A program made the translations under genes and the position numbers. A model generated the notes under the pieces. The model was not told the origin of the DNA, made no database searches, and worked only from the letters and a program-made list of their open reading frames with translations. From Thermus sp. CCB_US3_UF1 (GTDB taxonomy: Bacteria > Deinococcota > Deinococci > Deinococcales > Thermaceae), in assembly GCF_000236585.1 (NCBI RefSeq), contig NC_017278.1:124001-188000 (forward strand): 64,000 nucleotides of DNA. Direction: 5' to 3'. Of this stretch, positions 6,743-30,484 are shown in pieces (within the stretch, counting starts at the first letter, position 1; each line of letters begins with the position of its first letter).

Positions 6743-7708
6743 CTAACCGCCAAGGCCGCCATCTCCCACCTCCGCCACGAAAAGGTGCCAGGCCTCCCCC
6801 CCATCCCGCCGCACGGCCAGGTGGTAGTGGAAGGGCCTCAGGCGCGGGCTCACCTCCGCCAGGGCCCGCTCAAAGGGGGAAAGGAAGAAGTCCCGCCCCA
6901 TGGCCCACTCCCTTGGGCTAAGGGCGTGCCGGGGGCGCACCACCAGGACCAGCCTCCCCCCCGGCCTCAGGGCCGGAAGGGCGTAGTCCAAAAGGCCCTG
7001 CAGGTACTCCACGTAGGCGGCGTACCGCTCCTCCGGGGGCGCCTTCTCCCCCTCCTCCTTGAGCCAGGAGGCGAAGGTGGGGGGGTGAAGGACCAGGAGG
7101 GCGGCCTCCCCCTGGAAGCGGCGGGGCAGGTCCCGGATGTCCGCCCGCTCCACCCTCGGCCCTTTGGGGCAGGTATCCCCGCCCCAGGCTCGCCGCCCCA
7201 GGCCCAGGGCCTCCTCCACCACCGTGCCGTAGCCGGCCATGGGGTCCACCACCAGTTCCCCGGGGAGGGAGTAGAGGGCCACCAGGGCCCGGGCCACCCC
7301 GGGGGCCAGGGCCTCGGGCCGGGGGTCCTCCGGGTAGAGCCAGACGGGCGCCCCCAGGTCCACCCCCCCTTCCTCCCGGGGCAGGGCCTTGAGGGCCTCA
7401 GGGGGGCGGCCCTGGAGGTCCTCTAGGGCCAGCCTTCCCGCCCGGAGGAGGCGGTTTAGGCGGTGGGCGTGCCACAGGGGAAGCCCCGCCCTCAAGGCCT
7501 CCCGCAAGGGCTCAGGCAGGAAGGCCACGGGCAGGAGGTCGTGCCGCAGGTACTTGGGCTTCAGGCCCAAGCCCTGGGCGAAGGTGCGGAAAGCCTCCCG
7601 AGGAAGGGCCAGCAACCCCTGGACCACCTCCCCTTCCTCCCCTTCCAGACCCAGGCCTTGGGCTGCGCGCAAGACCTCCTCATAGACCTGCCAGGCACCC
7701 CGCTTCAT
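6743..7708 (-). CDS. Orphan DNA methyltransferase-like protein with ParB-type HTH
   Basis: A 321-residue protein. Residues about 30-90 resemble the helix-turn-helix region of ParB/KorB proteins (LKPKYLRHDLLPVAFLPEPL, then LREALRAGLPLWHAHRL). The C-terminal half is a class I methyltransferase fold with the SAM loop DPMAGYGT at 155-162. The catalytic motif IV position reads HPPTF at 208-212 instead of the usual (D/N/S)PP(Y/F), so activity is doubtful or the specificity unusual. No restriction enzyme gene is adjacent. It is divergent from repA (121 bp apart), so a role in plasmid replication or copy control is possible but unproven. Confidence 0.7.
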   Translation of the reverse strand: MKRGAWQVYEEVLRAAQGLGLEGEEGEVVQGLLALPREAFRTFAQGLGLKPKYLRHDLLPVAFLPEPLREALRAGLPLWHAHRLNRLLRAGRLALEDLQGRPPEALKALPREEGGVDLGAPVWLYPEDPRPEALAPGVARALVALYSLPGELVVDPMAGYGTVVEEALGLGRRAWGGDTCPKGPRVERADIRDLPRRFQGEAALLVLHPPTFASWLKEEGEKAPPEERYAAYVEYLQGLLDYALPALRPGGRLVLVVRPRHALSPREWAMGRDFFLSPFERALAEVSPRLRPFHYHLAVRRDGGEAWHLFVAEVGDGGLGG

Positions 7709-7828
7709 GCCCTTCAGGCTAGGCCCGCCCCGGGTTTCTGTTCAACCGACGGATCCCCCTGGCCCACCATGGACGACGGGTGGGGGCTCCTCGGGCTCCA
7801 CCGGGCCCGTGGATTAAACTGGTGGGCA

Positions 7829-9199
7829 ATGGCCGCTCACCGTACCTCCTCTAAGGAGGCCCTAGCCCGGCCCAAGCACTTTGATGAGGCCAACGTGGCC
7901 CGGCTGGGGCTCATCTCCATCCAGGAACGGATTCCGGAAGGGTACTCCTCCTGGGAGGAGGAGTTTGAGTTCCTCGGCAAGCCGGTGAAGCTGGCCTGCT
8001 ACGCCAGCGAGAAGGTGGGGGGCGTGCCCCACGGCCTGGACAACGAGGTGTCCCTGGCCCTCATCGCCCTCTACTTCAACGCCGGCAGCCCCGAGGACGG
8101 TACCTTTACCGCCACGCCTTACCAGATCCTCAAGCTCATGGGCCTGGACACCTCCGGCTACTACTACCAGGCCCTCAAGGAGAGCCTCATGCGCCTCACC
8201 ACCGCCACCTATGTCCTCTCCGAGGCCTGGCGGGCGGACGGGCGCTGGCAGAGCGTCACCTTCCGCTACATCGAGAAGCTGGAGTACACCTCCTCGGCCG
8301 AGGGCAAACTGGACCGGGCCAGCGTGCTGCGCATCACCTTGGCCAAGGAGATCGTGCGCTCCCTGAAGCAGAACTACGTCAAGCCCATCGACATCGAGTT
8401 CATGGCCAGCCTCAAGCGCCCCTTGAGCCGGGCCCTTTACCGCCTTCTGGACGCCCAGCGCTTCTCCCCCGAAAACCCCTCTCCCCTCCCCCGCTTTGAG
8501 GTGAACCTCATGGAGTGGGCCGCGGCCTGCAAGATCGTGCACAAGCGCCCCGACAAGGTGCGGCGTACCCTCGAGCCCGCCCACGAGGAGCTCATCGCCC
8601 GACGCTACCTCCAGTCGGTGGAGTACATCGGCCGGGGGCAGCAGCAGACCATCGTCTACGTCTTCGGCGAGGAGGCGGGCGGGGTGGCGGACATGGAGGC
8701 GGTGGACCTTCTCATGGCCGAGGGGCTTTCCTTCACCTCCGCCTACTCCTTGGCCCGGCGCTACTCCCTGGCCCACATCAAGGACCGGCTGGAGCGGTTC
8801 CGGAGCATCCTGGCCTCGGGGTACAAGCCCAAAAACCGGCTGGGCTTTCTGGTGGACGTGATCCGCGACGAAGAGGGCAAGTACCGCCGGGCCCTTCCCC
8901 CTGCCCAGGGCCGGCGGGCCCAGGCCCACCGGGAGGAGGAGGAGGCCCGGCGCATTGAGGAAGAAGCCGAGCGGGAGTGGCAGCGGATGCCTAAGGAGGC
9001 CCAGGTGCGCCGGGCCCTCCAGGTGGCCCAGCTGGTCCTGCGCTCCCGGATCAGCGTGGGGGAGCTGGAGGAGCTGGCCCGCCTCATGGAGGCGGGCCAG
9101 CTAGAGCCCAGGGCGGTGGTGGAGGAGCTGAAGGCCGCCGCCAGCGGGGGACGTTTAGAGGAATGGCTCCAAACATTTCGCCAGGGCCTCGCGGAATAG
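7829..9199 (+). CDS. repA: Plasmid replication initiator RepA
   Basis: About 456 residues. The block from ISIQERIPEGYSSWEEEFEF through the winged-helix-like regions (DNEVSLALIALYFNAG, YQILKLMGLDTSGYYY, LKRPLSRALYRLLDAQR) matches replication initiator protein A of Thermus plasmids. A charged coiled segment (EEEEARRIEEEAERE) and a helical C-terminus follow. The ATG at 7829 is preferred because TTAAAC 9 nt upstream could be a -10 box for a leaderless mRNA; an in-frame ATG at 7769 is the alternative. The protein should bind the nine iterons that begin 4 bp after its stop codon and open the origin. Confidence 0.9.
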   Translation: MAAHRTSSKEALARPKHFDEANVARLGLISIQERIPEGYSSWEEEFEFLGKPVKLACYASEKVGGVPHGLDNEVSLALIALYFNAGSPEDGTFTATPYQILKLMGLDTSGYYYQALKESLMRLTTATYVLSEAWRADGRWQSVTFRYIEKLEYTSSAEGKLDRASVLRITLAKEIVRSLKQNYVKPIDIEFMASLKRPLSRALYRLLDAQRFSPENPSPLPRFEVNLMEWAAACKIVHKRPDKVRRTLEPAHEELIARRYLQSVEYIGRGQQQTIVYVFGEEAGGVADMEAVDLLMAEGLSFTSAYSLARRYSLAHIKDRLERFRSILASGYKPKNRLGFLVDVIRDEEGKYRRALPPAQGRRAQAHREEEEARRIEEEAEREWQRMPKEAQVRRALQVAQLVLRSRISVGELEELARLMEAGQLEPRAVVEELKAAASGGRLEEWLQTFRQGLAE

Positions 9200-9202
9200 G
9201 GG

Positions 9203-9504
9203 TATCGGAAGACTTGGGGAGTCGGGAAGGGGCCTCGAGGGCCCAAGCGGGGCAAAACGCCTTCGTAACGGGCTTTTTCTGCTCACCCCCCCATATCGGA
9301 AGACTTGGGGAGTTTGGGGGGCAAAGTATCGGAAGACTTGGGGAGTTCGGCCCACCCCCCTATCGGAAGACTTGGGGAATTGGTATCGGAAGACTTGGGG
9401 AGTTTCTATCGGAAGACTTGGGGAGTTTGCGGGGAGGGGTATCGGAAGACTTGGGGAATTGGTATCGGAAGACTTGGGGAGTTCTATCGGAAGACTTGGG
9501 GAGT
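9203..9504 (+). repeat. Nine iterons of the plasmid origin
   Basis: A 20-bp direct repeat, tatcggaagacttggggagt, occurs nine times in the same orientation, starting at 9203, 9294, 9327, 9361, 9384, 9407, 9440, 9463 and 9485. Copies at 9361 and 9440 end in aat instead of agt; the core is otherwise invariant. Spacing is 22-23 or 33-34 bp except after the first copy, which stands alone 91 bp upstream. These steps are near two and three helical turns, so initiator monomers would sit on roughly one face of the DNA. The array directly follows repA. Confidence 0.95.
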
Positions 9505-9560
9505 TTACCACCCCGACTTGCGTCCTGGAGGCGCTTCCTCTCCCCTCCCCCCGCCCCCTT

Positions 9561-9752: not shown

Positions 9753-12700
9753 ATGGAACAGGCCTTGGCGGCGGATCGCGTGTGGGTGGCGTTGGACCTC
9801 GAGGCCACCTCGTCCCGTCCGGAGGAGGCGGAGATCCTGGAGGTGGCGGCGGTGGACACCTTGGGGCGCACCTTCCGCCGCTACCTGGTTACCCAAAACC
9901 CTCTGGGGCCGGATCACGAGGCGTTTCGCCTCACGGGGATTCCTTATGGGGAGTACCAAGCCAACAAGGTGCTCCCCGGGCAGGCCCTCGTGGAACTCTT
10001 GGAGTTTTTGGGGGCGCGGCCCCTGGTGGGCCACAACCTTCTCCGCTATGACCTTCCCCTTTTGGGGCGTTACCTGAAGGATCTGGACCTTTCCCTCCCG
10101 GCCAGGAGTGTCCTGGATACCCTACGCTTGGCTCACCTTCTCTTCCCTGTGCCTCCCCCGGGCCTCGAGGGATACCGCTTAGGCGACCTCTACCGCTTCT
10201 TCACCGGCCATGAGCTTCAAGGGGCACACCGGGCCCTGGAGGATGCCCGGGCCAACCTCCAGGTTCTGGACCACCTAATGGCTTGGGGAAAGGAGCACCT
10301 TGCCACCCATCCGGGTTTGGTAAGAGCCTGGCGGGAGCTTGGCCTTAGGGAGGCTGCCCTCTTCCCCGAGGTACCGGGCTTGGTGAAGGACCTCCTGGCG
10401 CGAGCGGCTGATGTGAGGGAGTTTTTTGTGGAGGCGGAGGGGAAGCCCCTGCCTTCCCTGGATAACCTGGGCCCCGACCTGCTACCTACCCGCCGGGAGG
10501 CTCAGCAAAGGATGTTCCACCTGGTGGCAGCGGCCTTGGACCAGGGTATTCCATTGCTCCTTCAAGCCCCTACAGGCACCGGGAAGACCAAGGGCTACCT
10601 CTACCCAGCCCTGGGGCGGGAGGGAGTAACCTGGGTGGCCACCCATACCAAAGTCCTCCAGGCCCAAGTCCTGGACGAGCTCCGTGAGGTGGCGCAAAGG
10701 GGCTACCGGGTTCGTGCGGCCCTGGTCAAAAGCGCCCGGGACGCCCTCTGTCCGGACCGCCTCCTGGAGGCATTTCTGGAAGAACGCAAGGCTGGCAGCG
10801 AGGAAGCGCGCTTGGCGGTGGGGGTTCTCCTCCACTATGCGGCCCTGGGCTTCCACGACCTCGAAGCCCTCCCTGCTTACTGGCATTTCCAGGAGGGCTT
10901 CCGCGCCGTGCGGGCCCGGGTAGGTACCAACCCCATACGCTGCCGCGAAGCCTGCCCCTTCTTCGCCTACTGCGCCTTCCAGCGGATGGAAGCAAAAAGG
11001 AAGAGGGCTACCCTTCTGGTGACCAACCAGGCTTACCTGCTGCAGCACTTCCTAGAGGCGGGCACCGGGCCCACCCTCGAGGCTACCCCCAGCCTGGTGG
11101 TGGACGAAGCCCACCACTTGGAGGAGGTGGCCACCGAGGCCCTAACGGAACAGGTAGACGGGGAAGGCTTGCGGCACCTCCTTGAACGCCTTGCTGACCA
11201 GGATAGGGGGCGGGGCCTTCTCCTTAACGAAGAATACCTCCGCCCACTGGGGGAAGAGGCCCGGGCCAAGGCCAAGGAGTTGGCAGCGGAAGGGGTACCC
11301 CGGGCTGCCGGGGTCCTGGAGGCTTATGGAAATCGCTTGGAGGCTTTTTTGAAGCAATGGGGCAGGGGAAGCCCTGAGTACGGGCTTTACCTGCCGCTGG
11401 ACCGCACCTGGCCCCGGCATGAGGCCTATCCCCTTCTCCGCCGCGAGGAGCAGGCCCTCATAAGGGTCCTCGCCTATCTTCTGGAAAAAGTTCAAGAACT
11501 ACGGGACCTTGCACCCCGCTCCCTGCTCGCCCTAGAGTTGGACTCCATTCTTCGGGAGTTTCGGATTTATTTGGATTTATTACGTGAAAGAGAGGAGGCC
11601 TTGGAAAAGGGGGGGGATGACAGCAGCCTGTACGTTTCCCGCCTTGATCCCGTAACCGGAACCTGGGCCCATCTGAAAGAGCCGGTGGAGGTGGCACCCC
11701 AGCTGGAACGGGGGTTGTGGCCCAAATTCCGTGGTGTGGTCCTGACCAGCGCCACCTTGAGGGTACCCACGGAGAAGGATCCGGAAGGGTTTTCCTTTTT
11801 GCAGCGGATCTTGGGCTTACCTGAGAAAGCCAAAAAGGAAGCCCTTCCCCCGAGCCTACCTTACGAGAAGGCGACCTTACTGGTACCCCACCATTTGCCA
11901 GAGGCCAGGGAGAGCACCCTTCCCCGCTTTCAACGCCTTTTGCACCAAGAACTCCGCCTGATCCTCCAGGCAGTGCCCCGCACCCTTACCCTTTTCACCA
12001 GCCTCCGGCGTCTGGAGGAAGCCAGAAGGGCCTTGGAGGACCTTCCCCATCTGCGCGCCCCCCTTACCCGCCGTGAGCGGGAGGATACCCTCCGCCTGGC
12101 CCGCGCCAACCCGGAGGCTCCCCTGGCCGCCCTAGGGTCCCGAAGCTTTATGGAGGGGGTGGATATTCCCCACCTCAAGCTGGTCAACCTGGAGCGCATA
12201 CCTTTCCCTTACCCTTCCCCCCTGGTGCGCAAACGCATGGAGCGGGCCTATGAGTATGGGCTGGACGGCTGGGAAGACTACTATCTGCCCAAGGCGGTGC
12301 TGGCCTTTGTCCAGGCTTTTGGCCGTCTGGTCCGGGATGACCGGAAGCGGGCGGGTAGGGGTGCTTTCGTCCTGTGGGATAAAAAACTACTCCATGCGTC
12401 GTACCAGGAGCCCTTCTACCGCGCTCTGCCCGAAGGTGTGGGCCGCCTCTTCCCCGGAACCCGGGAAGCCTTTTACCGAGCCTTGGGGGAGGCTTTGGAC
12501 CTCCCCCTACCGGTACCGGCCGAGGAGTTTCCTGAGGCACCCTGGGCCCAGGTTCAGGCCATCCTGAGGAACCCGCTGCTTTCCAACCTGGAGAAGGGCC
12601 GGCGGGTGGCTAAAGAGGTGTACCGGCTGGTGCTGGCCGAAGATCGCTGGGCCAAACAGGCGGAAGCCATCCAGGCAGCCCTCGAGGGCCACCACCTCCT

Positions 12701-14729
12701 CGCCCTACTCCCCACCGGTTTCGGTAAGAGCTTGGCCTTTCAGATCCCCGCCTGGCTCCAGGAGGGGCTTACCCTGGTGGTTTCGCCCCTGGTGGCCCTG
12801 ATGAAGGACCAGGCAGACCGGCTGGCGGAGCTAGGCTTGCCTGCCTTGGCCCTGCACGGGCTGATGTCGGGCGGGGAACAACGGGGCGTGCTGGACGAGG
12901 TGCGCCAAGGAAGGGTACACCTCCTGTACGTGGCCCCCGAGCGGATCAACCGAAGCAGCGAACTCCAGAAACTCCTGAAGGAGTTCCGCGCTGCGGGCAG
13001 GCTGGCCCGGGTGGTGTTTGACGAGGCCCACTGCCTCCTGGAGTGGGGCTTTGACTTCCGTCCCGACTACCTGCGGGCCCTGGAGTGGCTCAAAGGGCTG
13101 GCTCTGCCCATGAGCTTTTTCACCGCTACCTTGACCCCGGAGGAACGGGTGCGGCTTAAGCAGGTGGCGGGCCTGAGGGAGGTGGTGGAGGTCCTGCCCG
13201 ACACCTTCCACCGGGAGAACCTGCGCTTCGTGGTGCGTCAGGCCCGGGGAGAGGTGGACAAGTTTGCCCATCTGGCCCAGGCGCTACTTTGGGTGCAGAA
13301 GGAGGGGGGAAGCGCCATCGTCTACGCCACCAGCCGGGCGGAAACGGAGCGGCTGGCTTGGGCCTTGGGCAAGCTCTTCCCCGGGCTAGGGGTGGAAGCC
13401 TACCACGCGGGGCTCGGTCCCCACATCCGGCGCGAGGTCCAGGAGCGCTTTACCCAGGGGGTAAGCCGGGTGGTGGTGGCGACCACCGCCTTTGGCATGG
13501 GGGTGGATAAGGCGGACGTGCGTTTGGTGGCCCACTGGCGTCCCCCCTTGAGCCTCGAGGAGTACATCCAGCAGGCAGGCCGTGCGGGCCGGGATGGGAA
13601 GGAGGCCTACGCCTTCCTGCTCTACACCGTCGGGGACTGGAACTTCCTGCGCTGGATGGCCGGGCTAAGCAGGCGTTCTTCCTGGGAAGTCTACGCGGAA
13701 GCCCTCCTAAAGCGCCTGGAAACAGGGGCGTTCCGGGGGTACAAGAAAGACCTCTTGCAGAGCCTGCGCCAACAACTTGGAGAAAGTGTAGCGGAGGAGG
13801 TGGGAGTGGGGGAAGAGGAGGACGAGCCAGAGGGGATAGAAGGACCCGCTCCCCTTGGCTCAGAGGAACTGGACCTCCTGTTGGCCGGCCTGGAACGGGC
13901 GGGGGTTTTGCGTTTCCAGTACCTTCCCGGTAGGGCTTCCCTTCTCCTTTTCCCTGAGGAGTTGGACCGCCTGAGGCGCCGTGAGCCTGGGCTCTCTTCC
14001 CTGCTGGAGCGTGCTGTTTTCCGGGGCAGTCCTCGTCAGGGGGAGGTTTTTTTGGACATGAGCCGTCTTCCTCTGGAGCAGGCCGAGGAACTGGACAACG
14101 GCCTTTACCGTGCTTACCGGGAAGGATGGCTGCGCCTTTACCACTACCGGGAACCCCTCCTTTTGGTGGAGCGTTCCCCTACAGCCCAGGGCCAAAACCT
14201 GGATGCCTGGCGGCAGGATCGTGAGAAAGCCGTACGCCTGGCGCAGGAGCGCCTGGATGCGGTGCGGGAGTATGCCACCCGTAGCCGCTGCCGGGCTGGG
14301 GTTCTCCTGGCCCACATCAACGGGGAAAGGCGACGCTGCGGTACCTGCGATACTTGCTCGGGGGACCTGGGGCCTTGGGAAGGATTGGAAACCTTCCAAT
14401 CAGAAGAGCTTCTTCGCGCCTATAAGCCTTTGGATACGCTTCTGGCTTTCTTCCGTTGGGTGGAGGAACACTACCTCCAAAACCCTTATCTGGGCCGTCA
14501 GGCCACCCTTATGGCCTTGAGGGGTAAGGACCGGACCAAGGATGGCCTTCTTTCTCCCCGTTACCGCGATAACGCCTTGTTTGGTCACCTCTCCTTCCTG
14601 AAGCCTAAGCAGCTGGAGCGGGCCTTTGAGGAAGCGTTGCGGCTAGGGTACTTGGAGAAAAAGGCGGTTTGGCAGGGGCGCGACCTTTTCGGCCTAACCG
14701 AGGCAGGGCGGAAGCGGCTGCGGAGGTGA
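9753..14729 (+). CDS. DEDDh exonuclease - DinG/XPD helicase - RecQ helicase fusion
   Basis: A 1658-residue single chain with three enzymes in order. Residues 10-175 form a DEDDh 3'-5' exonuclease: D15 and E17 (DLEAT), D100 after GHN, H159 and D164. Residues about 240-960 form an XPD/DinG-like SF2 helicase with Walker A APTGTGKT (K278), four cysteines C333, C397, C401 and C407 placed as for a 4Fe-4S cluster, and DEAH at 451. Residues about 965-1658 form a RecQ helicase: PTGFGKS (K992), DEAH at 1090, QQAGRAGRDG, zinc cysteines C1513/C1529/C1532/C1535 and a C-terminal winged-helix-like region. All visible catalytic residues are intact. DinG-exonuclease fusions are known in Firmicutes; the addition of RecQ in one chain is unusual. 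It heads a tightly overlapping four-gene operon. Confidence 0.93.
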   Translation: MEQALAADRVWVALDLEATSSRPEEAEILEVAAVDTLGRTFRRYLVTQNPLGPDHEAFRLTGIPYGEYQANKVLPGQALVELLEFLGARPLVGHNLLRYDLPLLGRYLKDLDLSLPARSVLDTLRLAHLLFPVPPPGLEGYRLGDLYRFFTGHELQGAHRALEDARANLQVLDHLMAWGKEHLATHPGLVRAWRELGLREAALFPEVPGLVKDLLARAADVREFFVEAEGKPLPSLDNLGPDLLPTRREAQQRMFHLVAAALDQGIPLLLQAPTGTGKTKGYLYPALGREGVTWVATHTKVLQAQVLDELREVAQRGYRVRAALVKSARDALCPDRLLEAFLEERKAGSEEARLAVGVLLHYAALGFHDLEALPAYWHFQEGFRAVRARVGTNPIRCREACPFFAYCAFQRMEAKRKRATLLVTNQAYLLQHFLEAGTGPTLEATPSLVVDEAHHLEEVATEALTEQVDGEGLRHLLERLADQDRGRGLLLNEEYLRPLGEEARAKAKELAAEGVPRAAGVLEAYGNRLEAFLKQWGRGSPEYGLYLPLDRTWPRHEAYPLLRREEQALIRVLAYLLEKVQELRDLAPRSLLALELDSILREFRIYLDLLREREEALEKGGDDSSLYVSRLDPVTGTWAHLKEPVEVAPQLERGLWPKFRGVVLTSATLRVPTEKDPEGFSFLQRILGLPEKAKKEALPPSLPYEKATLLVPHHLPEARESTLPRFQRLLHQELRLILQAVPRTLTLFTSLRRLEEARRALEDLPHLRAPLTRREREDTLRLARANPEAPLAALGSRSFMEGVDIPHLKLVNLERIPFPYPSPLVRKRMERAYEYGLDGWEDYYLPKAVLAFVQAFGRLVRDDRKRAGRGAFVLWDKKLLHASYQEPFYRALPEGVGRLFPGTREAFYRALGEALDLPLPVPAEEFPEAPWAQVQAILRNPLLSNLEKGRRVAKEVYRLVLAEDRWAKQAEAIQAALEGHHLLALLPTGFGKSLAFQIPAWLQEGLTLVVSPLVALMKDQADRLAELGLPALALHGLMSGGEQRGVLDEVRQGRVHLLYVAPERINRSSELQKLLKEFRAAGRLARVVFDEAHCLLEWGFDFRPDYLRALEWLKGLALPMSFFTATLTPEERVRLKQVAGLREVVEVLPDTFHRENLRFVVRQARGEVDKFAHLAQALLWVQKEGGSAIVYATSRAETERLAWALGKLFPGLGVEAYHAGLGPHIRREVQERFTQGVSRVVVATTAFGMGVDKADVRLVAHWRPPLSLEEYIQQAGRAGRDGKEAYAFLLYTVGDWNFLRWMAGLSRRSSWEVYAEALLKRLETGAFRGYKKDLLQSLRQQLGESVAEEVGVGEEEDEPEGIEGPAPLGSEELDLLLAGLERAGVLRFQYLPGRASLLLFPEELDRLRRREPGLSSLLERAVFRGSPRQGEVFLDMSRLPLEQAEELDNGLYRAYREGWLRLYHYREPLLLVERSPTAQGQNLDAWRQDREKAVRLAQERLDAVREYATRSRCRAGVLLAHINGERRRCGTCDTCSGDLGPWEGLETFQSEELLRAYKPLDTLLAFFRWVEEHYLQNPYLGRQATLMALRGKDRTKDGLLSPRYRDNALFGHLSFLKPKQLERAFEEALRLGYLEKKAVWQGRDLFGLTEAGRKRLRR

Positions 14730-14731
14730 GC

Positions 14732-15601
14732 GTGAAGGAAAAGGGAGAGAGAACGCCGCCCACCTTTAGGGTCCCCTCCTTAGGGGAACTTCCTGAGCGC
14801 TCGGGAGGGTGTCGTCCGGAGGACCTTCCCAGGCCCGTCTTCACCCCGACCCCCGAGGGTGACCTTCCCTTGTTGGGGGAAGGTTCCCAGCAGGAGGATT
14901 CCGAAAACCCAAAGGAGGAACGACAGGTTTGGAGGCTGAAGCAACGCCTTCAGAAAAAGCACGCGGAGCTGGAGGACTTGCGACGCAGGTTGGCCAGATT
15001 GGAGCGGGAATGGCAGGTAGCCTTGCGGGCCAAGGGGAAGGCAGAGATGGAGGCCAGCCGCCTGCGCAAGGACTATGCGGCATTGGAGGAGGAGCTTGCC
15101 CAGCTGAGGAAGCAATGGGAGGAGGCCCAAGCCCAGCTCAACCTACTTCTTCCCTTGCGGGAGGAGAACAAAACCTTAAGGGAAGAGGTGGTTCGCTTGG
15201 GGGAAAAGGTAGCCTCCCTTCAAAAAGAGGCCAAGCGGGGGGAAGCCTGGGCCCGTGCTCAGGCTTTTCAGGAAGCCCTCCCGGCCCCCTTTCCCCTCGA
15301 GGTCTTCTCCCGGGTCCTCTTTTTGGACTATGGGGCTCTAGGGACTACCCCCGAGGAGCGCCTCTTGGCCTTGGCGGAAGGGTACAAGGCGCTCCTGGCC
15401 GGCCACGACCATCCTGCCCTTCAGGCTAGTACTCGGGAACTAATCCAAGGAGACCCTGAAGGCATTGCCCTGGTGGGCCTGGAGCGGCTCCTCTTGGACC
15501 TGGCCAATAGCCCCTTGCCCCGCTGGTTGCGAACCCATGCTTGGCTGCTGGAGGCCAGGCTGCGGGGGGGAGGGCTACATTCCCCCAGGGAGGAAGGATG
15601 A
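14732..15601 (+). CDS. Coiled-coil protein of the helicase operon
   Basis: About 289 residues. A disordered, charged first 70 residues is followed by a long coiled coil (about residues 75-180; heptad-like LKQRLQKKHAELEDLRRRLA onward), then a helical domain (PLEVFSRVLFLDYG, LALAEGYKALLAGHDHP). The GTG at 14732 is preferred because GGAGGT ends 4 nt before it; the GTG at 14726 overlaps the helicase stop codon and is the alternative. The stop overlaps the next ATG (ATGA). The family is not recognised. Its place in the operon suggests a structural or sensing partner of the helicase fusion. Confidence 0.8.
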   Translation: MKEKGERTPPTFRVPSLGELPERSGGCRPEDLPRPVFTPTPEGDLPLLGEGSQQEDSENPKEERQVWRLKQRLQKKHAELEDLRRRLARLEREWQVALRAKGKAEMEASRLRKDYAALEEELAQLRKQWEEAQAQLNLLLPLREENKTLREEVVRLGEKVASLQKEAKRGEAWARAQAFQEALPAPFPLEVFSRVLFLDYGALGTTPEERLLALAEGYKALLAGHDHPALQASTRELIQGDPEGIALVGLERLLLDLANSPLPRWLRTHAWLLEARLRGGGLHSPREEG

Positions 15602-16110
15602 CTCCGGAGGAGCGCCAGACCCTGGAGGCTAGGTTCCGGGAGGACCTGGCCTGGTACGAGCGGGAGTTAGAGGCCTGCTGGAAACGGCTTGCTGAGGAGC
15701 GGACAGCCTGGCAGGAAACGAAGAGGGGGCTACTAGAAGAGATAAGCCGTTGTTCGCACAGGATCCGGGCCTTGGAGGCTAAGGGCCGGGAGCGGGAAAA
15801 GGAGGTGGAAGCCCTTAAGCGTCGCTTGGAGGCCCTGAACCGACCCGCCCTCGGGGAGGGTTGGTTGGCGGCGTTGCGCGAGGAGCTGGGTCATTGGGAC
15901 CAGATGCTTGTGGAGAAGGTGGGGGCGGTGCGGGCGGGTAACCTCGAGGAGGCCTTGGAGGAACTGCTAGGAATGCGCCTAGAGGCCTTGCGCCGCCACC
16001 TTCAGGGGCAACAGCCCGACTTCAAGGCCCTGTACACGGCCTTGGTCCTCGAGTGGGCCCTTTGGGCCTGGTTGGAGGGAGAATGGCAGACCCTTGGCGA
16101 CACGCCGTGA
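15598..16110 (+). CDS. Small coiled-coil protein of the helicase operon
   Basis: 170 residues. Residues about 5-90 form a coiled coil (ERELEACWKRLAEERTAW, EKEVEALKRRLEALN), followed by an all-helical domain with LGHWDQMLVEKVGAVRAGNL and a tryptophan-rich end (LEWALWAWLEGEW). The architecture repeats that of the preceding gene at smaller size: coiled coil, then helical domain. Translation is coupled to both neighbours: the start overlaps the previous stop by 4 bp and the next start lies 28 bp inside this gene. No known family was recognised. Confidence 0.8.
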   Translation: MTPEERQTLEARFREDLAWYERELEACWKRLAEERTAWQETKRGLLEEISRCSHRIRALEAKGREREKEVEALKRRLEALNRPALGEGWLAALREELGHWDQMLVEKVGAVRAGNLEEALEELLGMRLEALRRHLQGQQPDFKALYTALVLEWALWAWLEGEWQTLGDTP

Positions 16111-17612
16111 ACCTCTATCGGGCGGTGGAGGAGGGGTTGCGCTTGGGGGATTTGCGCCGTGCTCCGGTGCGCTACGAGGATTACCTGGGGGTGAAGGAAA
16201 CGGTACGCAAGCTGTGGCTGGGGGAGTGGAGACCAGGGCTCCACAAGCCCACCAAGGATGGGGTGGTACCCGCGTACCTGCTCCTCGGCTTCTTGGCCGG
16301 CTACTTCTTCTACCGGAATTTGCCCGAGAACGACCTTGCCTTTTGGCCCGACTTCCTTAAGGCCTTAGGGGTGGATCAGCAGGAGCCGACCCCCGCTCAG
16401 CGGGACCTGCTTTGGCGGGTTCTTTCTGGGGTGCCCCTCGTTCAGCGCCACTTGCGCTTTCATGCTGACGGGAGCCGGGACTTCGTGGGCACCCTGGATG
16501 CGCTCTTCGGCTTTCGGGCGTTGCGCCTTCGCGATCTGCTGGCCCACCTCCGGCGCTACCGGGAGGAGGGAGTGCTTGCCGGGGAGCTGGGGGCGTACGG
16601 GGAGATCTTGTCCACCTTGAAGGAGGCCTTGGACCGCTTGGTCCAGGAGGGGCTGGCCGAAGAGGAGCTGGACGACCTCGAGGGTCTGGTGGCCCGACTG
16701 GAAAGCCTGGGCTTCTTCCCTCCCGATCCGCACCCTTTGCGGTTTCTCTTCCACCGTTCCCAGGAGGCTCTGCGAAGCCTTTACCGGGAGTGGCGAGGTG
16801 AGAAAAACGAGGCCACGCGCTACTCTAAGGTACGGGTAGAACTCCTCCAGGGAAAGGGCCTGGTAGAGCGGGTTGTGCCCCAGATGCGGCCCGAGCCTCT
16901 CTTGGAGGGCATGAAGGTTTATGGCCAGGTCCGCTTCCGGGACGGGACCTTTCAAGGTTTCACCTGGACGCCGAGGCTGGACGAGAAGGGTTTGCCGATC
17001 CCCGAGGAAAAGCGCCTGGTTCACCAGGAGGGGGAGGTGGTCTTCCGCCTCCATCACCGGGCTTGGGGCGTGCGCTTTCTTGACAGCTCGGGCAACCCGG
17101 TCCCCTTCTGGCGCTACCCAGAACCCTTCCGGGTGGAAAGCTTTCACTTTGACCCGGCGAAAAACCCCCTGGCGTTTTCCCTCGAGTCCGGGGGTGCGCC
17201 CGTGGAGGACCCCCGGGGGATTTCCCTTGACCAGGCGCTCTTGGAGGACATCCTCTTGGTAGAGGTTCTGGTTTCAGGCAAGCGGGAGCACGGGGAGTGG
17301 CGCCTCCTTGGGCGGCTTCCTGTGCGTTTCCATCCGCTGCTGACCCCTCGGCTTACGGAGGAGGCCTTGGAGCTAGGCCTCTCCCCACCAGGGGAACTGG
17401 AGGTGGAGCTTCTCCCCTCCCAGGCCCCTCCGCAACGGGCTAGGGGCAGCGTCCGCATACCGCGAGGGCGCCTGCCTTTTCGGGTCCGGGTCCGGGCCTT
17501 CGGCCAGGTCTGGGAGTACCAGGTGCCGCCTCGAGGCTGGCCCGCCGCTTTCTACCGGGCAGGGATGGCCTTTGGAAACCCAGGCCCCCTACGGCCTGAG
17601 GGGCCCGTGTGA
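16083..17612 (+). CDS. Unrecognised 509-residue protein of the helicase operon
   Basis: The start is the ATG at 16083, inside the end of the previous gene, giving 509 residues. The first half is helical with a YEDYLGVKETVRKLWLGEW motif and a hydrophobic stretch VPAYLLLGFLAGYFFY. The second half (from about residue 240) is rich in predicted strands and aromatic residues (VYGQVRFRDGTFQGFTWTP, VVFRLHHRAWGVRFLDSSG). No catalytic motif or known family is evident. As the last gene of the operon it may be the recognition or effector component; this is inference from position only. Confidence 0.8.
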   Translation: MADPWRHAVNLYRAVEEGLRLGDLRRAPVRYEDYLGVKETVRKLWLGEWRPGLHKPTKDGVVPAYLLLGFLAGYFFYRNLPENDLAFWPDFLKALGVDQQEPTPAQRDLLWRVLSGVPLVQRHLRFHADGSRDFVGTLDALFGFRALRLRDLLAHLRRYREEGVLAGELGAYGEILSTLKEALDRLVQEGLAEEELDDLEGLVARLESLGFFPPDPHPLRFLFHRSQEALRSLYREWRGEKNEATRYSKVRVELLQGKGLVERVVPQMRPEPLLEGMKVYGQVRFRDGTFQGFTWTPRLDEKGLPIPEEKRLVHQEGEVVFRLHHRAWGVRFLDSSGNPVPFWRYPEPFRVESFHFDPAKNPLAFSLESGGAPVEDPRGISLDQALLEDILLVEVLVSGKREHGEWRLLGRLPVRFHPLLTPRLTEEALELGLSPPGELEVELLPSQAPPQRARGSVRIPRGRLPFRVRVRAFGQVWEYQVPPRGWPAAFYRAGMAFGNPGPLRPEGPV

Positions 17613-18055: not shown

Positions 18056-20287
18056 TTAGGCCTCCTCCAGGCTGTGGTCCGCCTTCAGGGTGGCGCTGTT
18101 TTCCCGGAGAACCCGGGCCAGGTCCTCGGAAAACCCTCCTTCGGCCTCGGCCTGGACCTCCAGGTGGAGCTTCAGCCGCACCCCCGGTTCCTTTGCCAGG
18201 TGGAGCACGATCTCCTTGGCCAATAGCTCGGCCTCCTGCACCAGGCTATGGGGGGCCAGCTCCTTGCGGAGGTAGAAGCGCTTGGGTCGGGGCTTGGGGG
18301 CAGCGACGGGGGTCTTTTCCGGGGTTGGCGGCAAGGCACCGCCACCAGGGGGAGTGGGCCCATCTACGGCTACCTTGGCCTCCTCCCCCTGGGTGGCCTC
18401 GGCCACCTCCCTGCGCAGGAGGAAGCCCTGGAGGCTCGGGGTGACCCTTTCCCCCAGGAAAACCCCTTTGGGCTTGCCTTCCTGGAGGTGGGTTGCGTAG
18501 CCGAAAAGCCCCTCCTCCACCCCCCTTTTCACGCTCTCCAAGAGCACCTCCTCCCCCTGCAGCTTGGGCAGGTAGGGATAGGTGCAAAGGGCTTCCCAAA
18601 GCCAGCGCAAGGGGAGGACCCCTTGGGGCTCGCGGGAGGTGAAGAAACGGTACCGCTCCAGGGTTTCCAGAAGGAACCTAGGGTGCCACTCGGTGTACAC
18701 CAGGGCCTCGTGTTTGGCCTTGGCCGCAGCCCGCTCCGCGGGGTCGCCGCTTCCCAAAAGGCGGATGGCGGTGGGCTCCAGATGGGGGTTTTGGGAATCC
18801 GGCTGGGTGAAGCTTAGGAGGATACGGTATGCCTCCTTCAGGCGGGCCTCGAGGGTATCCCCTGCCTCCTTGAGCCGCGCCTCCACCTGCCGCAGGTCCG
18901 CCTGGCCCAGGTTCAGGGCCTCCCGGTCCTCCCAGATGCCCTTCCAGGCCAGATAGCGCCGGGTGGCTTCCTCCAGGTCGGGCACGAGGGAGGCCTCCGC
19001 CGCCAAGAAGAGGAGGGTGTTGCGGTAGAGCCTGGGGGCCTGGCGGCGGGTTTCCAGGATTTCCCGGGCCCGCCTCTCCCCTTCCGATCCCCCCTTGGCG
19101 TAGGGGGCGGTGGGGGGAAGGAGGACCAGGCGCAGGGCAGGCTCGTCAGGCACGTCCGCGGTGCTCTCGGGGGCCGCGTGCAGGGCGGCGAAAGGGGTGC
19201 GGCCCCTGGCCCAGCCCTTGAGGCGGCCCGCTATCTCCCGCCTTGCCTCCTCTGGGTCCAGGCGGGTCGCCCGCTCCTGGGCCAGGCGGTTGAGGCTGGG
19301 CCGGGTTTCAAACCAGTACCGGTCCCCTTCCGCGTGGAAGTAGGTGAGGTGGTCGGCCAGGGCCCTTAGGGCGTCGGCCACCAGGGCCGGGCTTTCCCCC
19401 GGCTGGACCACCCCCAGGCGCACCCGCACCCCCTCCACCCCTCGAGGCCGCCCCACGGGGGCCGCCGCCCCTGGAGCCGTGGCCATGAAGACCGCCCGGG
19501 CGGTGCGCCGGGCCATCTGCTGTCGGCCCAGGGCGAGCCGCTCGTTGTCCAGGACCAAGGCCCTGGCGTTCACCCCGTCCACGTCCGCGTCCAGCACCCC
19601 ATCAAAGCCCTCCAGGAAGCGGGAGAGGTGGCGGGTGAGCTCATAGCGCGGCCCGCCGGGGTCCAAGGGCAGGCCGCCGGGCAGGATCATGAGGGAGGTG
19701 TCCCCGCGGCTCCAGAGGGCGTAGACCACGGCGGCCATGAAGCGGAGAACCCCCCGGGTGCGCTGGAAGCCTTCCAGGGTGGACCAGTCCCCATAGAGGC
19801 GGTCAAAGAGCTCGGGATGGATGGGGTAGGCCAGCTTCAGGCGGCGCTCGTAGTCCGGCTCCAGGGTTTCCGGGGGGAACTCCCCCTTGTGCTCCCGGTA
19901 AAGGCGCATAAAGGCCTGGACCACCGCGTCCCGGGCCCGGTAGCCCTCCTCCGAAAGGGGGAGGAAAAGCCGCCTCCGGACGATCTCGTAGGACTCGTCC
20001 TGGGTGGCAGGCTGCCACACGGACTCCAGCCGGCCAAAAACGTTCTGGAGCCTGAAGAGGGCCTCCCGCCCCCGCTCTCCCCCCACCTCGGCGTCGGAGG
20101 CGGGCAGGGAGGCCACCAAGAGGGTGCGGCGGCTCCTCTTGGCCGCCTCGGTCAGGGCCTGGGCGAAGGTGAGGTTCTGGTCAAAGGTGCCCGCGGGTAG
20201 GTCTTCCCCGTGAAGGTTGCGCAGGTAGGCTACCCACTCGTCCATGAGGATCAGGGCGGGCGCGAAGCGGTCAAAGAGCTCCATGAA
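18056..20287 (-). pseudogene. DUF499 ATPase, C-terminal part (gene interrupted)
   Basis: About 742 residues continuing the DUF499 family from its Walker B region (ALILMDEWVAYLRNL) to the C-terminus. The N-terminal part with Walker A lies at 22392-23419. In family members the block ending SDTLN joins directly to ELFDRFAPALILMDEW, so the insertion of about 2.1 kb sits exactly at that joint. Upstream an in-frame TAG belongs to the end of the inserted TnpB gene. DUF499 ATPases accompany DUF1156 methylases in defence-type clusters related to BREX. No independent start signal is evident, so this half is probably not translated. Confidence 0.88.
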
Positions 20288-20836
20288 CTACCCACGACCA
20301 ACCGCTATCGCGGCATGGTCGGGGTTTCGCAGTTCAACGGGGCCAGTCAGCCCCTCCCCGCCCCCTGGTTCCCAGGGGTCTAAGGCCCATCTCAGCATGA
20401 CCAAGGCCGCGGCCTGGTCGCGGGGCATCTCGCACCCGCAAGGGCATTGGTGTACACGTTGAGAGAGTAGTTTTTTCTCCTGGCGTAGGCAGAGGGGACA
20501 GGTCTGTGAGGGCTTGACCTTTGAGGTGGGCACCTCTACCAGCCGCGTACCAGCCTCTGCCGCTTTGTACGCCAGCTTCCGTAGAATGTCGCCGATCCCC
20601 ACGTCAAGCATTGCCCGGTTGAGACCCGCCTTTCTGCTCCCACCCCTTGCCGTCATGTTTTTGACCTTGAGGGCCTCGGTTGCAATGAGCCCATATTTCG
20701 CAACCCAACCAGCAGTAAGCTTGTGCTGGAAGTCGTCTCGCTGGTTGGCAACCTTCCGGTGTATGCGAGCGATAGCCCTTTTTGTTCGCATCCAGCGATT
20801 GCTGCCTTGCTTTTGCCGGGATAGTTTGCGTTGCAG
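20288..20836 (-). pseudogene. TnpB C-terminal fragment
   Basis: The roughly 183 residues from TLQRKLSRQKQGSNRWMRTK onward are the C-terminal half of a TnpB protein. They include IATEALKVKNM (RuvC-II region), the zinc ribbon CPLCLRQEKKLLSQRVHQCPC and PRDQAAALVM with the final RuvC Asp. The 5' side is cut by the IS256-type element at 20837. TnpB proteins are RNA-guided nucleases ancestral to Cas12; this copy lacks the first RuvC motif and cannot work. Confidence 0.9.
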
Positions 20837-22094
20837 GGTCGTGTAAGGATTTATGTGTAAGGGTCCGTGTTTAATAGGGGGGCACACCTTAGCACGAGGA
20901 GGTGCCCCGTGGACCAGGATACCTTGCGGATCTTGCTGAGGGAAGCGGTGCGGGAGACAGTAGCCGAGGTTCTGCAGACGGTTCTGGAGCTGGACCGGAC
21001 GGCCTTCTTGCAGGTGCACGGAGGCCGCAGGAACGGCTACTACCCCCGCAAGCTGGAGACCACCTTCGGCCAGGTGGACCTGAAGGTCCCTAGGGATCGG
21101 GAATCTCGGTATTACCCGGCTTTCCTTAAGCCCTACGTCCGCCGCCTGGTGGACGTGGGGGAAGTGGCGGTAGCCCTTTACGCCGCCGGGGTCAGTCAGC
21201 GCAAGGCGGCCGAGATACTGAGCCTGCTCTTAGGCCACCGCTACTCCCACGAGACCCTGAGCGCCCTGACGGACGAGGTCCTGGAGGCGGCAGGAGCCTT
21301 CCGCACCCGGCCTTTGCCCGAGGAGATGGCCTTCGTCTACCTGGACGGGCTTTCCCTAAAGGTCTTCAGGGAAGGAGAAGGGATCGTACGGGAAAGCGTG
21401 TATGTGGCCCTGGGCATCGCCCCTAATGGGGAGAGGCGGGTCCTGGGGTTTTGGCTGTTGCCCACGGAGAGCGCCCTGGGATGGGAGGGGGTCCTGGGGG
21501 AGCTTTGGCAGCGGGGCCTGCGGCGGGTATTGCTCTTCATCACCGACGGGCTGCCCGGGCTTCCTGAAGCGATCCGCAGGGTCTACCCTCAGGCGGAATG
21601 GCAGCGGTGCGTGGTGCACGGGGTGCGGTGGAGCCTGTCCCAGGTGCGGGCGCGGGACCGGGGCCTGCTGGCGGAGGACCTGAGGCGGGTGTACGGGGCG
21701 GAGAGCCGGGAAGAAGCTCTTGGGGCCTTGGAGGAGGTGAAGGCCGCCTGGGGTTCGCGGTACCCGGGGGTGGTGGGGCTTTGGGTACAGGATTCGGGGG
21801 CCTTCCTGCGGTTCTACGGGTACCCCAAGGTGCTTTGGCCGTACCTGCGGAGCACCAACCTGATGGAGCGGTTTATCCGGGAAGTGCGGCGGGGGACGAA
21901 GGTGCGGGACCACAAGTTTCCTAAGGAAGAGGCGGTGTACAAGCTTCTTTACCTGGAGTCGGAGAGGCAGGAAGGGAGGTGGGCAGAACGGAAACTAAAG
22001 GGGTTCTCGGAGGTGAAGGAGGTGCTGGAGAAGATGCTTCAGGAGCGGTATGCCCCCCGTACACAGACTCTTACACATAACTCTTGACACGACC
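20837..22094 (+). mobile_element. IS256-family element, copy 1
   Basis: The 1258-bp element begins ggtcgtgtaaggatttatgt and ends with the imperfect inverse (ataactcttgacacgacc). The ends share GTCGTGT, TTATGTGTAAG and GTGT blocks as terminal inverted repeats. Copy 2 at 48632-49889 has exactly the same length, and its transposase is identical throughout. The flanking 8-mers (cgttgcag and tcgcagtg) differ, so there is no target duplication, and TnpB residues are missing across the insertion. A deletion next to the element or recombination between copies has therefore occurred. Confidence 0.92.
20909..22087 (+). CDS. IS256-family transposase, copy 1
   Basis: 392 residues from the GTG at 20909, preceded by GAGGAGGT with good spacing. 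An upstream extension in the same frame runs into the terminal repeat and is not credible. The DDE residues are visible in AFVYLDGLSLKVF, LLFITDGLPGLPEAI and the C-terminal STNLMERFIREVRRGTKVRD segment typical of IS256/Mutator transposases. The reading frame is intact. The identical copy at 48704-49882 implies recent transposition within this replicon. Confidence 0.94.
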   Translation: MDQDTLRILLREAVRETVAEVLQTVLELDRTAFLQVHGGRRNGYYPRKLETTFGQVDLKVPRDRESRYYPAFLKPYVRRLVDVGEVAVALYAAGVSQRKAAEILSLLLGHRYSHETLSALTDEVLEAAGAFRTRPLPEEMAFVYLDGLSLKVFREGEGIVRESVYVALGIAPNGERRVLGFWLLPTESALGWEGVLGELWQRGLRRVLLFITDGLPGLPEAIRRVYPQAEWQRCVVHGVRWSLSQVRARDRGLLAEDLRRVYGAESREEALGALEEVKAAWGSRYPGVVGLWVQDSGAFLRFYGYPKVLWPYLRSTNLMERFIREVRRGTKVRDHKFPKEEAVYKLLYLESERQEGRWAERKLKGFSEVKEVLEKMLQERYAPRTQTLTHNS

Positions 22095-24237: not shown

Positions 24238-26820
24238 TTAGAACAGCTCCCCCTGCACCGCGCCCCGTCTCCGGGCGGCTTCCACGTGGAGGTGGCCGTA
24301 GCTGCCCGCCAGGAGGTTGAAGTCCTGGGCTTCCTCGGTGCGTCCCTTGCGCTCGGCGATGCCGTAGAGGCGGTAAGCCAGGGCCCGGGCTCCCTCGGCC
24401 AGGTCGGGTGGTACCTGGGACAGGAGGGTGGCGGCGGCGCTCTCCCCTGCTTGCTTTAGGGCGCGGATGAGCTGGTGGGCCACCTCCCAGGCGCTGAGGC
24501 GGCGGTCCGTTTGGGGGTCCCAGCCTTCGGGGTACTCCTCCGGCTTCAGAAGGCGCACCTTGCCCGCCTTGGCCCGCAGGATGCCGCCCTCCTCCAGGGC
24601 GGCCACGGCCACGTTCTTGGCCTTGGCCAGGGTTTCTGCGTCCCCGAAGGGGCCTTCCCCATACCCATACTGCTCGTACCAGGCGATGGCGAAGCGGGTG
24701 GCGCTGTCCAGCTCGGCCTCCTCCTCGGCCAGGAACTCGTCCAGGACGCTGTTGATGAGGACGAGGGCCTCCCGCACGGAAAGGGCCCGGCCGCTGGGCT
24801 CCACCACCTGGCGGTAGCGGCTGAAGACGGCCATGCCCGGGCCGATGGCGCTTTGGGCTAGGTCCACAGGGGGAATGCTCCCCTGGGTAAGTTTTCTTAG
24901 GGCCTCCGGAAGCTCCTGGCGCAGGGCCCGGAGAAACTCCTGCCGGGTGGCCAAGGGGGCGTCTTGGGGCCGGGGGCGGCAGACCAGGACGATGGAGGAG
25001 GCCAGGGCGTTGGACCCCTGGCCCTGGGGGCGGTTGGCCAGCTCGGTGCGCATGGGCCAGGTGGCGGTGATCTGGAAGCCCGCGTCCACCAGGCCCTGCA
25101 GAAAGGTTTCCCACCCCGTGGAGGCCAGGGTGGGGGCGCCATTGCCCTCCTCGTCCGCCTCCTCTTCTTGTTGCTTGAAGGCGTAGTAGAGGGTTAAAGG
25201 GTAGTCCGGGTGGGCCTTTTGGCGCAGGTTCCGGAAGACCTGGCGCATGCCCTCCTCAAAGTGGCGCTTGGCGGCCTCTTTGCTTCCGTGGCGGTAGGGG
25301 TCGGCCACCAGCTCTTCGGCCTTGGGGGTAAGAAGGGTGCGGAAGAGGTCGGGATAGGTGGGTTCTAGGGTTTTGCGCAACCAAACATAGAAGAAGTCCG
25401 AAAGGATAGCATAACTGATGTTGTCATAGTAGGGGGGATCAGTGGAAATGAGGGGTGGGGTGGGTACGCCGTTCACGGACTCCTGGGCATTGAGCTGCCG
25501 GGCCTGGCCGGGAGGATGGGCGGGGAGGGCTTCCAGGGCGGTGGCTACCCATTCCAGCATGTTGTCCCAGCTTCCAGACGATTGGCTAAAGGGGTTGGCC
25601 TCAGCAAGGTCCCATACCATGGGGAGGGCTTGCCGGGTGAAGGTATTCCTAATATTTTCCCTGCTTGTGTGCCAGCTGCAAAGGGCTGGGTGGTAGTCCA
25701 CAAGCCTCCCCACAGCCAGGGCCAGGTACACCCCCACCGCTTCCGCGTACGCTCTAGCGCCCCGGCCTCCCTCGGCCAGGGGGGTATCGTCATCAGGCAT
25801 GCCGGCTTGGAGGGCGTCTTGGTAGACCCTTTCCCGGGCTTCGTCCACCAGGTCGGCGAAGGTGGCCAGGGCCAGGAGCTGGCGGGGGGTGAAGAGGTCG
25901 GCGTGGGTAGCGAGGCCGTACTGCACGCACCAGATGTTCCTGGGGTCGTGGACGAGCTGGGTCAAGGGTTTCCAGGTTGGCAAGGCTTGGTGGGCAATCG
26001 CCTCGTGTTCCTCGTTTGGCGCGTGGTAGTTCCTGCCTCCCTTCCCCTCCGTCATGAGGGCCATTAGTTTGGCCCCCAGGCGTCCCGCCCTTCCCTCTTG
26101 GCGCACATGCTCCAGGGAAAAGGGGGTTCCGCATACCAGGCACCGGGCCCCCTTGCGGTTCACGGTGCCCTCCACCGGGGGTTCCCCTCCCCTTTCCACC
26201 CGGAAGAACACCTGCCCGGAACGCACCTCGGGCACCACAAAGGCTTCCCTGCCCCTCTTTTTGGAAAGCCAGAAGGAGCGCACCAAGGGAGTTTCCGCGC
26301 GGCAGCCGGGGCTGGGGCAGGTTACGGTGTGGGCCCAAAGCCAGGCGATGACGGTTTCCCCGTTCAGCTCGGGGTAGAGGTGGCCGATGCGCCTCCTGGC
26401 CTCCTCCCGCACCCAGGCCCCGTAGTGGCGCACGTCCCAGGCCAGGCCCTTGGCCCCTGGCAGGGCCTCTCCTTCCCTGGCCTTGGCCCGGTACTCTGGG
26501 TTAACGGGCAAAAGGCCAAGGAAACGGGGTGGGATTTCCACCAGGGCCTTGTTGATGAGTACGGCCACGGGGTTGAGGTCGGAGGCGTAGGCCCTAAGCC
26601 CCAGGCGCTGGGCCTCCAGGGGAATGGTGCCGCCGCCGGCGAAGGGGTCCAGCACGGGAGGAGCTTCCTCCAGCAGGGCCGCTATGGTCTCACGGTCGTT
26701 CGTGGAAGCTGGCGGGGTTTTGCCTAAGCTTTGGGCCAGGCTTTTGGCAATCTCATACTGGGCCTCGGCCACCACCCCTTTCCTGGGGTCCAGGGCTTCT
26801 TGGGGGTCCTTCACATGGTC
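24238..26820 (-). pseudogene. DUF1156 adenine-specific DNA methylase, N-terminally truncated and fused to helicase remnant
   Basis: About 860 residues of a COG1743/DUF1156-type methyltransferase. The SAM motif DPFAGGGTIPLEAQRLGL and catalytic motif IV STDPPYYDNISYAILSDFFY are intact, and a CxxC pair (CLVCGTPF) marks the inserted zinc-binding region. The usual N-terminus with the RHGHPSTLHLWWARRPL region is absent. Instead the frame runs without a break from a helicase C-terminus (joint near 26820, LPGKPL/DHVKDPQ), so a deletion fused two genes in frame. Whether anything is translated is uncertain, because an in-frame stop lies upstream at 27226. Such methylases are the modification partner of DUF499 ATPases. 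Confidence 0.85.
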
Positions 26821-27468
26821 CAAGGGCTTGCCGGGCAGGGCCACCTTGTCCTTGTGGAAGGTGACCCGCTGGTAGCTCCTCAGGATGCCGGGCCTGGCCT
26901 GGCGCACCCGGGGAGGGACGAAGCTCACCTCCATCCGTCCCGCTTCCCGCAGGTGCACGCTGCCCCCCAGGCGCTCCAAGGCCTCGCGGAAGAAGCTTCC
27001 CAGGAAGTGGGGTCGGAGCTTCCTGGCCTCGGCCCGCTCCAGTTCCAGCCGAAGGGCCTGTACCTGTTTGGGGCTCAGAACCTCCTTGGCCAGGGCGTTT
27101 TGCAGCAGGCGTTCCAGGCGCTTGAGGTCCACGGCCCCTTCCACCTGGCGCAAAAGCCGGGCCCGCACCTCGGGGTCCTCGCCGTAGCGGATGGACTCGA
27201 GGAGGAGGTCCCTTAAGGGTTTTTCCTAGAAGAGCTGGCCCAGCACGTCAAACACCTTTCCCCCGAGGGCCCGGCTGGCCTCTTCCAGTTTGGCCAGGAG
27301 CCGCCGGTATACCTCCCCCTCCCGGGTGTTCTCCGCCACCAGGTAGACCTCGGTCTGGCCGATGCGGTGGATGCGGCCAAAGCGCTGCTCCAGGCGGGCG
27401 GGGTTCCAGGGGAGATCGTAGTTGATGAGGAGGTGGGCCTGCTGGAGGTTCACCCCTTCCCCGGCAGG
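26820..27468 (-). pseudogene. SNF2/SF2 helicase C-terminal remnant with in-frame stop
   Basis: The remnant begins in helicase motif V ([21 protein letters not shown]), continues through motif VI ([17 protein letters not shown]) and VFDVLGQLF, and meets TAG at 27226-27228. The same frame continues after the stop with EKPLRDLLLESIRYGEDPEV and on to LPGKPL, so this is a nonsense mutation within one gene. Motifs I to IV are missing: the joint near 27468 connects to a parB-like fragment. The helicase would have been the third component of the DUF499/DUF1156 cluster. Confidence 0.85.
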
Positions 27469-30378: not shown

Positions 30379-30384
30379 GCGGAA

Positions 30385-30414
30385 AGCATACCCGCGCGGT
30401 GCGGTATGGCGCAA
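30385..30414 (-). promoter_or_regulatory. parAB promoter
   Basis: On the minus strand TTGCGC (-35, plus 30409-30414) and TATGCT (-10, plus 30385-30390) are separated by 18 bp, and TATGCT stands 6 nt before the parA ATG. This predicts a leaderless mRNA and settles the parA start. Confidence 0.7.
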
Positions 30415-30452
30415 GGGAGGCCTGGACCCGGGGCCAGAGCCCCCTATATCCT

Positions 30453-30484
30453 TGCTCATTCAGCATGTCCATGCTAAATGAGCA
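30453..30484. promoter_or_regulatory. 32-bp palindrome upstream of parA, candidate centromere or operator
   Basis: Arms of 15 bp (tgctcattcagcatg and catgctaaatgagca) flank a 2-base centre; 14 of 15 positions pair. It lies 39 bp beyond the parA -35 box and ends 3 bp before the divergent ATPase gene. It does not resemble the chromosomal parS consensus. It could be the ParB-binding site of this plasmid, or an operator for the divergent gene, whose -10 region it overlaps. Confidence 0.6.

Follow-up and report, generated by a model that had tools for sequence, protein, structure and literature searches.

The four adjacent genes A to D, which reach to position 17612 of the window (the whole analyzed stretch of 64,000 nucleotides from Thermus sp. 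CCB_US3_UF1), are a translationally coupled operon, and we give a probability of roughly 50% to the view that they constitute one accessory, horizontally spreading Thermales system targeting foreign or aberrant DNA. The first-pass annotation had picked out gene A as a single chain carrying three nucleic-acid enzymes. This protein is real, but the partners B, C, and D had been missed, with which the functional unit extends past position 14729.

Gene A (9753-14729, on the plus strand like all features of the operon) starts with ATG and encodes an exonuclease-DinG-RecQ fusion of 1658 residues, in which Pfam and NCBIfam profile searches placed all three of the claimed modules. The first is a DEDDh (DnaQ/RNase T) exonuclease domain at 9786-10268 (residues 12-172; Pfam RNase_T, PF00929, 1.1e-13, 52.5 bits, cut-off 24) that contains the complete set D15, E17, D100, H159, and D164. 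The second, at 10491-12437 (about residues 247-895), has the features of a DinG/XPD-type Fe-S SF2 helicase, namely a Walker A lysine (K278), a DEAH box (451-454), the Helicase_C_2 domain (PF13307, residues 742-894, 2.2e-25, over the cut-off), and four cysteines of the Fe-S type (333, 397, 401, and 407), which form a predicted Fe-S site. The third is a RecQ helicase core at 12651-13667 (about residues 967-1305; Pfam DEAD at 968-1130, 2.4e-38, and Helicase_C at 1170-1282) with K992, the sequence DEAHC at 1090 (DEAH 1090-1093), and QQAGRAGRDG at 1273. With 309.2 bits, gene A clearly exceeds the cut-off of 219.8 of the NCBIfam family recQ_fam (TIGR00614) and thus belongs to the RecQ family, whereas the RecQ equivalog TIGR01389 (cut-off 640.2) matched the core only, with 322.7 bits. 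The core is separated from a RecQ zinc module at 14217-14357 (residues 1489-1535; RecQ_Zn_bind, 24.9 bits versus a cut-off of 25; cysteines 1513, 1529, 1532, and 1535) by a segment of about 183 residues (1306-1488, 13668-14216), which had no match in the Pfam search and which is less conserved and contains an acidic stretch in an alignment of 14 sequences. The conserved C-terminal extension (residues 1536-1658, 14358-14726) had no Pfam match either and appears winged-helix-like by inspection. Eight of the nine cysteines of the entire chain belong to the two metal-site quartets, and the ninth is C1094 of DEAHC.

The catalytic residues that had been named as intact are all present, and the orthologs in the 14-sequence alignment retain the residues of the Walker, DEAH, exonuclease, and zinc motifs, with the first three of the zinc cysteines being invariant. 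In two orthologs of one outgroup family (loci L050 and L068), C401 of the Fe-S quartet is missing while the other three cysteines remain. Full-length single-frame orthologs with 40-68% identity occur in many Thermales. As these come from independent genomes and plasmids, a fusion produced by sequencing error, frameshift, or misassembly is excluded; the chain is genuine and evolves under constraint.

Gene B (14726-15601, 291 residues) starts with GTG within a GTGA overlap with the stop codon of gene A, gene C (15598-16110, 170 residues) starts with ATG within an ATGA overlap with the stop codon of gene B, and gene D (16083-17612, 509 residues) starts with an ATG inside gene C. The order A-B-C-D is kept in at least 12 loci, including those of T. 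thermophilus, T. aquaticus, T. brockianus, T. oshimai, T. parvatiensis, Meiothermus, and Allomeiothermus. The order is also kept in three genomes that are more distant, with an open reading frame of similar size in the place of gene C, which has diverged too far to be scored. The search for the same domain order and its neighbors returned orthologs that were accompanied by the B-D partners in every intact locus inspected. Among the PLSDB plasmids, full-length gene A is present in 21 records, and gene D (E<=0.01) was found in exactly these 21 and no others; four records that contain only the exonuclease part of gene A lack gene D. The distance matrices of A and D (r=0.978) and of A and B (r=0.957) are strongly correlated, a degree reached by none of 2000 permutations. 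All four genes are under purifying selection, with dN/dS values of about 0.26-0.31 between the window and HB27 that are rough, as dS exceeds 1. B, C, and D are probably needed for function. In Meiothermus sp. KatS3mg071 (L061, 7140-10318; L063, 6300-9478), gene B appears as two fragments separated by about 2.3 kb and was probably split by an insertion.

The partner proteins have little in common with known families. Both B and C are coiled-coil proteins in which the C-terminal domain is conserved, and their database matches are weak and of the usual coiled-coil cross-hit type; the match of gene B to JetC, the MukB-like Wadjet protein, has 16 bits and is confined to a coiled-coil stretch, which does not place it in that family. 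PADLOC contains no model covering B, C, or D, and D is an orphan with no match in Pfam, NCBIfam, PADLOC, PHROGs, or PDB sequences. The AlphaFold model of D (mean pLDDT 84; pTM 0.47, so that the domain arrangement is uncertain) predicts an all-helical N domain (1-236) and an Ig/Fn3-like beta-sandwich part (250-480). A structure search with the full model returned only Ig/Fn3-like sandwiches, with CD4 as the best match (Z 7.5, rmsd 7.8, 128 residues), and this likeness may simply be that of a widespread fold. The N domain folded alone gave a more confident model (pLDDT 88.5, pTM 0.83) for which Foldseek returned no match at E<=0.001 (best Z 2.9), although this is no proof that the fold is new. 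A related exonuclease-DinG-RecQ fusion on the Deinococcus actinosclerus plasmid CP029776 (L030, 7782-15739) is followed by a different partner of 886 residues that matches neither B nor D, has no other homolog in PLSDB, and shows a weak match to the anti-phage protein ProA (18.3 bits, cut-off 1500). This difference suggests partner exchange. We did not count this locus as an A-B-C-D system, as its partner does not match B or D.

How such a system could work can be outlined from the families involved. RecQ enzymes move in the 3'-5' direction and DinG/XPD enzymes in the 5'-3' direction. If the motors of gene A share these polarities, they would each follow one strand and travel in the same direction along the duplex, as RecB and RecD do, which are motors on opposite strands that move jointly. 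The N-terminal DEDDh domain would degrade the 3'-ended strand as it becomes exposed. The three partners would bring A to its target or license it there, thereby supplying target choice or control, with contacts possibly made by the coiled coils and by the two parts of D, helical and beta-sandwich. We infer that the proteins form a complex with a role in defense, and its targets would be phage, incoming plasmid, or competence DNA. The exonuclease step is the one step with biochemical support, which comes from a truncated version of gene A. A point against defense is that gene D has so far been found only in Thermales, which is an unusually narrow range for a defense system.

This truncated version is found in T. 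thermophilus HB8. The plasmids of HB27 and HB8 share 99.8% DNA identity from upstream of gene A to about codon 249, after which a deletion has removed about 7.3 kb in HB8, comprising the remainder of A together with B, C, and D in full. The remaining stump (NC_006462, 172275-173165) encodes the first ~249 residues of A, that is, its exonuclease part, followed by a tail of about 47 unrelated residues. By gene order, counting from reverse gyrase as TTHB172, we read the stump as TTHB178. This protein was published under the name "T. thermophilus exonuclease I" as an exonuclease acting on ssDNA in the 3'-5' direction. It degrades ssDNA, deaminated bases included, has been described as an exonuclease of DNA repair that responds to H2O2, and resembles RNase T in the responses to H2O2 and UV (PMC5957452). 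TTHB178 thus shares with the intact locus the promoter and 5' end of HB27 gene A and differs from it by the loss of DinG, RecQ, B, C, and D. Read as the leftover of a deletion, it may have a repair phenotype that does not reflect the function of the intact system.

The published work on HB8 also supports a co-regulation with CRISPR genes, as CRP was reported to control tthb178 along with them (PMC3084264), and phage infection induces many HB8 defense genes (PMC4406477). Using a CRP consensus, we found an identical CRP-like site 50-63 bp upstream of the operon in HB27, HB8, and T. parvatiensis. The same promoter scan revealed no such site upstream of the window operon or of most of its relatives, and CRP regulation is therefore not general. 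Together with the description of TTHB178 as a repair enzyme, this counts against a defense function.

The distribution of the operon fits an accessory system rather than a core repair enzyme. A RecQ-family match was absent from 19 of the 27 genomes of the genus set, and most Thermus genomes lack both RecQ and the exonuclease-DinG-RecQ fusion. In the tree of gene A, four Thermus loci cluster with those of Meiothermus and Allomeiothermus instead of with the window and HB27 (support 99/97), which indicates horizontal exchange between genera. Gene A is broken into pieces on the plasmid of T. thermophilus SG0.5JP17-16. In HB27, the recQ gene on pTT27 was classified by Tn-seq as a "Highly Permissive" shell gene (PMC13140390), in line with dispensability. 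The patchy distribution and the Tn-seq data rule out a housekeeping protein, and the earlier assignment as an accessory gene is confirmed. A phage or viral origin was likewise rejected, as the search for close relatives returned no viral contig with gene A, and its coverage by phage records does not exceed 42%, with the modules found separately. Outside Deinococcota, no fusion was found in the PLSDB plasmids and in one peptide-seeded genome scan.

RecQ and DinG family members are repair enzymes in most cases, and the strongest competing explanation is an accessory module for DNA repair or recombination, in which A would resect or remodel damaged forks and 3' ends with B-D as cofactors, and would make up for the RecQ and DinG functions missing from most Thermus chromosomes. 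Genomes with the fusion usually have no other strong match to RecQ or to the DinG C-terminal domain, and the locus of T. brockianus lies near dnaE and an S24 peptidase. The RNase T-like stress responses of TTHB178 point in the same direction, as does the listing of HB27 recQ with recJ among the repair helicase-nuclease pairs in the Tn-seq study. Nevertheless, we consider this explanation rather unlikely, as the operon is patchy, horizontally exchanged, decaying, and dispensable, most Thermus genomes manage without RecQ, the orphan partners are unlike those of ordinary repair enzymes, and the reported regulation in T. thermophilus links the stump to CRISPR genes.

The genomic neighborhood bears on both the defense reading and the remaining alternatives. 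The window operon is flanked by a block of RepA and about ten TATCGGAAGACTTGGGGAGTT iterons (7463-9510) and, on the other side, by a decayed Hma system, a helicase-methylase-ATPase defense system, which bears out the previously noted defense-type locus. HmaC (18056-20284, minus strand) has lost its N-terminal part beside insertion sequences (20288-22087), which separate it from HmaB (24238-27168, minus strand), the first ~120 residues of which match HmaA as if they were a fused remnant. Elsewhere, the operon neighbors Cas3 and Cmr in HB27, cas4-cas1-cas2, TROVE, and WYL in A. silvanus, BrxL, TROVE, and vWA/tubulin-like genes in T. oshimai, and VapBC in T. aquaticus. In JL-18 the neighbors are non-defensive (sugar transport and reverse gyrase), and this variation is a further point against defense. 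Overall, the defense-type neighbors across these loci may support a defense role.

The previously noted position next to a plasmid origin was correct insofar as RepA and the iterons are real, but these, together with ParAB (28541-30459), are embedded in a chromosome-sized contig of 2.24 Mb, so that a plasmid replicon has apparently been integrated into the chromosome or joined to it in the assembly. A module for maintenance or replication of the carrier (mega)plasmid would explain this arrangement, the proximity to RepA/ParAB in Meiothermus taiwanensis and to ParB in T. brockianus, and the 21 plasmid records. We regard it as distinctly improbable, as the unit also occurs in other chromosome-sized contigs (G039, 2.27 Mb, and G024, 2.06 Mb, besides the window contig), most loci are not adjacent to Rep, pTT27 of HB8 persists though most of the unit is lost, and insertions are tolerated in HB27 (PMC13140390). 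From the two possibilities first put forward, anti-invader defense and plasmid maintenance, the former thus stands as the inferred function, whereas the latter has lost ground. A role as a CRISPR helper, with A as a type IV-like DinG effector or as a spacer-processing helicase-nuclease that cooperates with the Cas proteins of its host, is very unlikely: although PADLOC typeIV_DinG matches the middle module of A, a published table gives DinG with type IV for HB27, T. oshimai, and T. filiformis (PMC5529391), and CRISPR genes lie near the operon in HB27 and A. silvanus, NCBIfam cas_csf4 gave 41.8 bits against a cut-off of 400, csf genes are annotated around the operon in no inspected locus, in disagreement with type IV membership, and most loci have no CRISPR genes beside the operon. 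The type IV calls made from "DinG" for HB27 and T. oshimai (PMC5529391, Table 3) may be misread exonuclease-DinG-RecQ fusions.

Within the preferred reading of an anti-invader function, we tentatively advance a more specific proposal, against which the odds lean slightly: A-B-C-D would be an undescribed system consisting of a bipolar, RecBCD-like RecQ/XPD-DinG/DnaQ helicase-nuclease and three orphan directors, with "exonuclease I" as its stump. If this is true, "T. thermophilus exonuclease I" is the stump of a defense machine and not a dedicated repair enzyme. With HB27 carrying the intact operon and HB8 the deletion, both tractable strains, the question is directly testable.

The three-domain order had been reported before. 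The HB27 fusion was published in 2005 as "REC_DNA" by Omelchenko (PMC1274311), and this is the same protein family, domain order, and locus as HB27 gene A. In its available part, that paper names the fusion but neither a unit with B-D nor a link to TTHB178. The literature searched, in which most subscription journals were outside the scope, contained neither the conserved four-gene unit nor the orphan D nor the interpretation of TTHB178 as a deletion remnant; these may be new, unlike the fusion itself. The exonuclease-DinG proteins of Firmicutes (TIGR01407; solved DinG 8zef) resemble gene A in having an exonuclease followed by a DinG-type helicase but lack RecQ and B-D, and gene A scores well below the family cut-offs (TIGR01407, 209.2 bits versus 547.7; PRK08074, 236.9 versus 789). 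The eukaryotic exonuclease-RecQ protein WRN likewise combines a 3'-5' DEDD-type exonuclease with RecQ in one chain, and the RecQ part of gene A matches it at about 1e-49, but gene A has the additional DinG module and other accessory domains and partners. DpdF, PsyrT, and other RecQ-like defense helicases share a RecQ-type core within defense operons. Here the match is confined to this core, with 192 bits for DpdF against a cut-off of 550; B-D are unrelated to the Dpd partners, and neither a Dpd nor a PsyrA partner was seen. The comparison with RecBCD/AddAB concerns the way of working only, as both would combine motors with a nuclease on DNA ends; they are not homologous, since gene A has SF2 motors of the RecQ/XPD type instead of SF1 motors and a DEDDh nuclease instead of one of the RecB type. 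If the proposal holds, gene A would unite in a single chain two SF2 motors of opposite polarity and an exonuclease, a combination otherwise known from RecBCD-type complexes.
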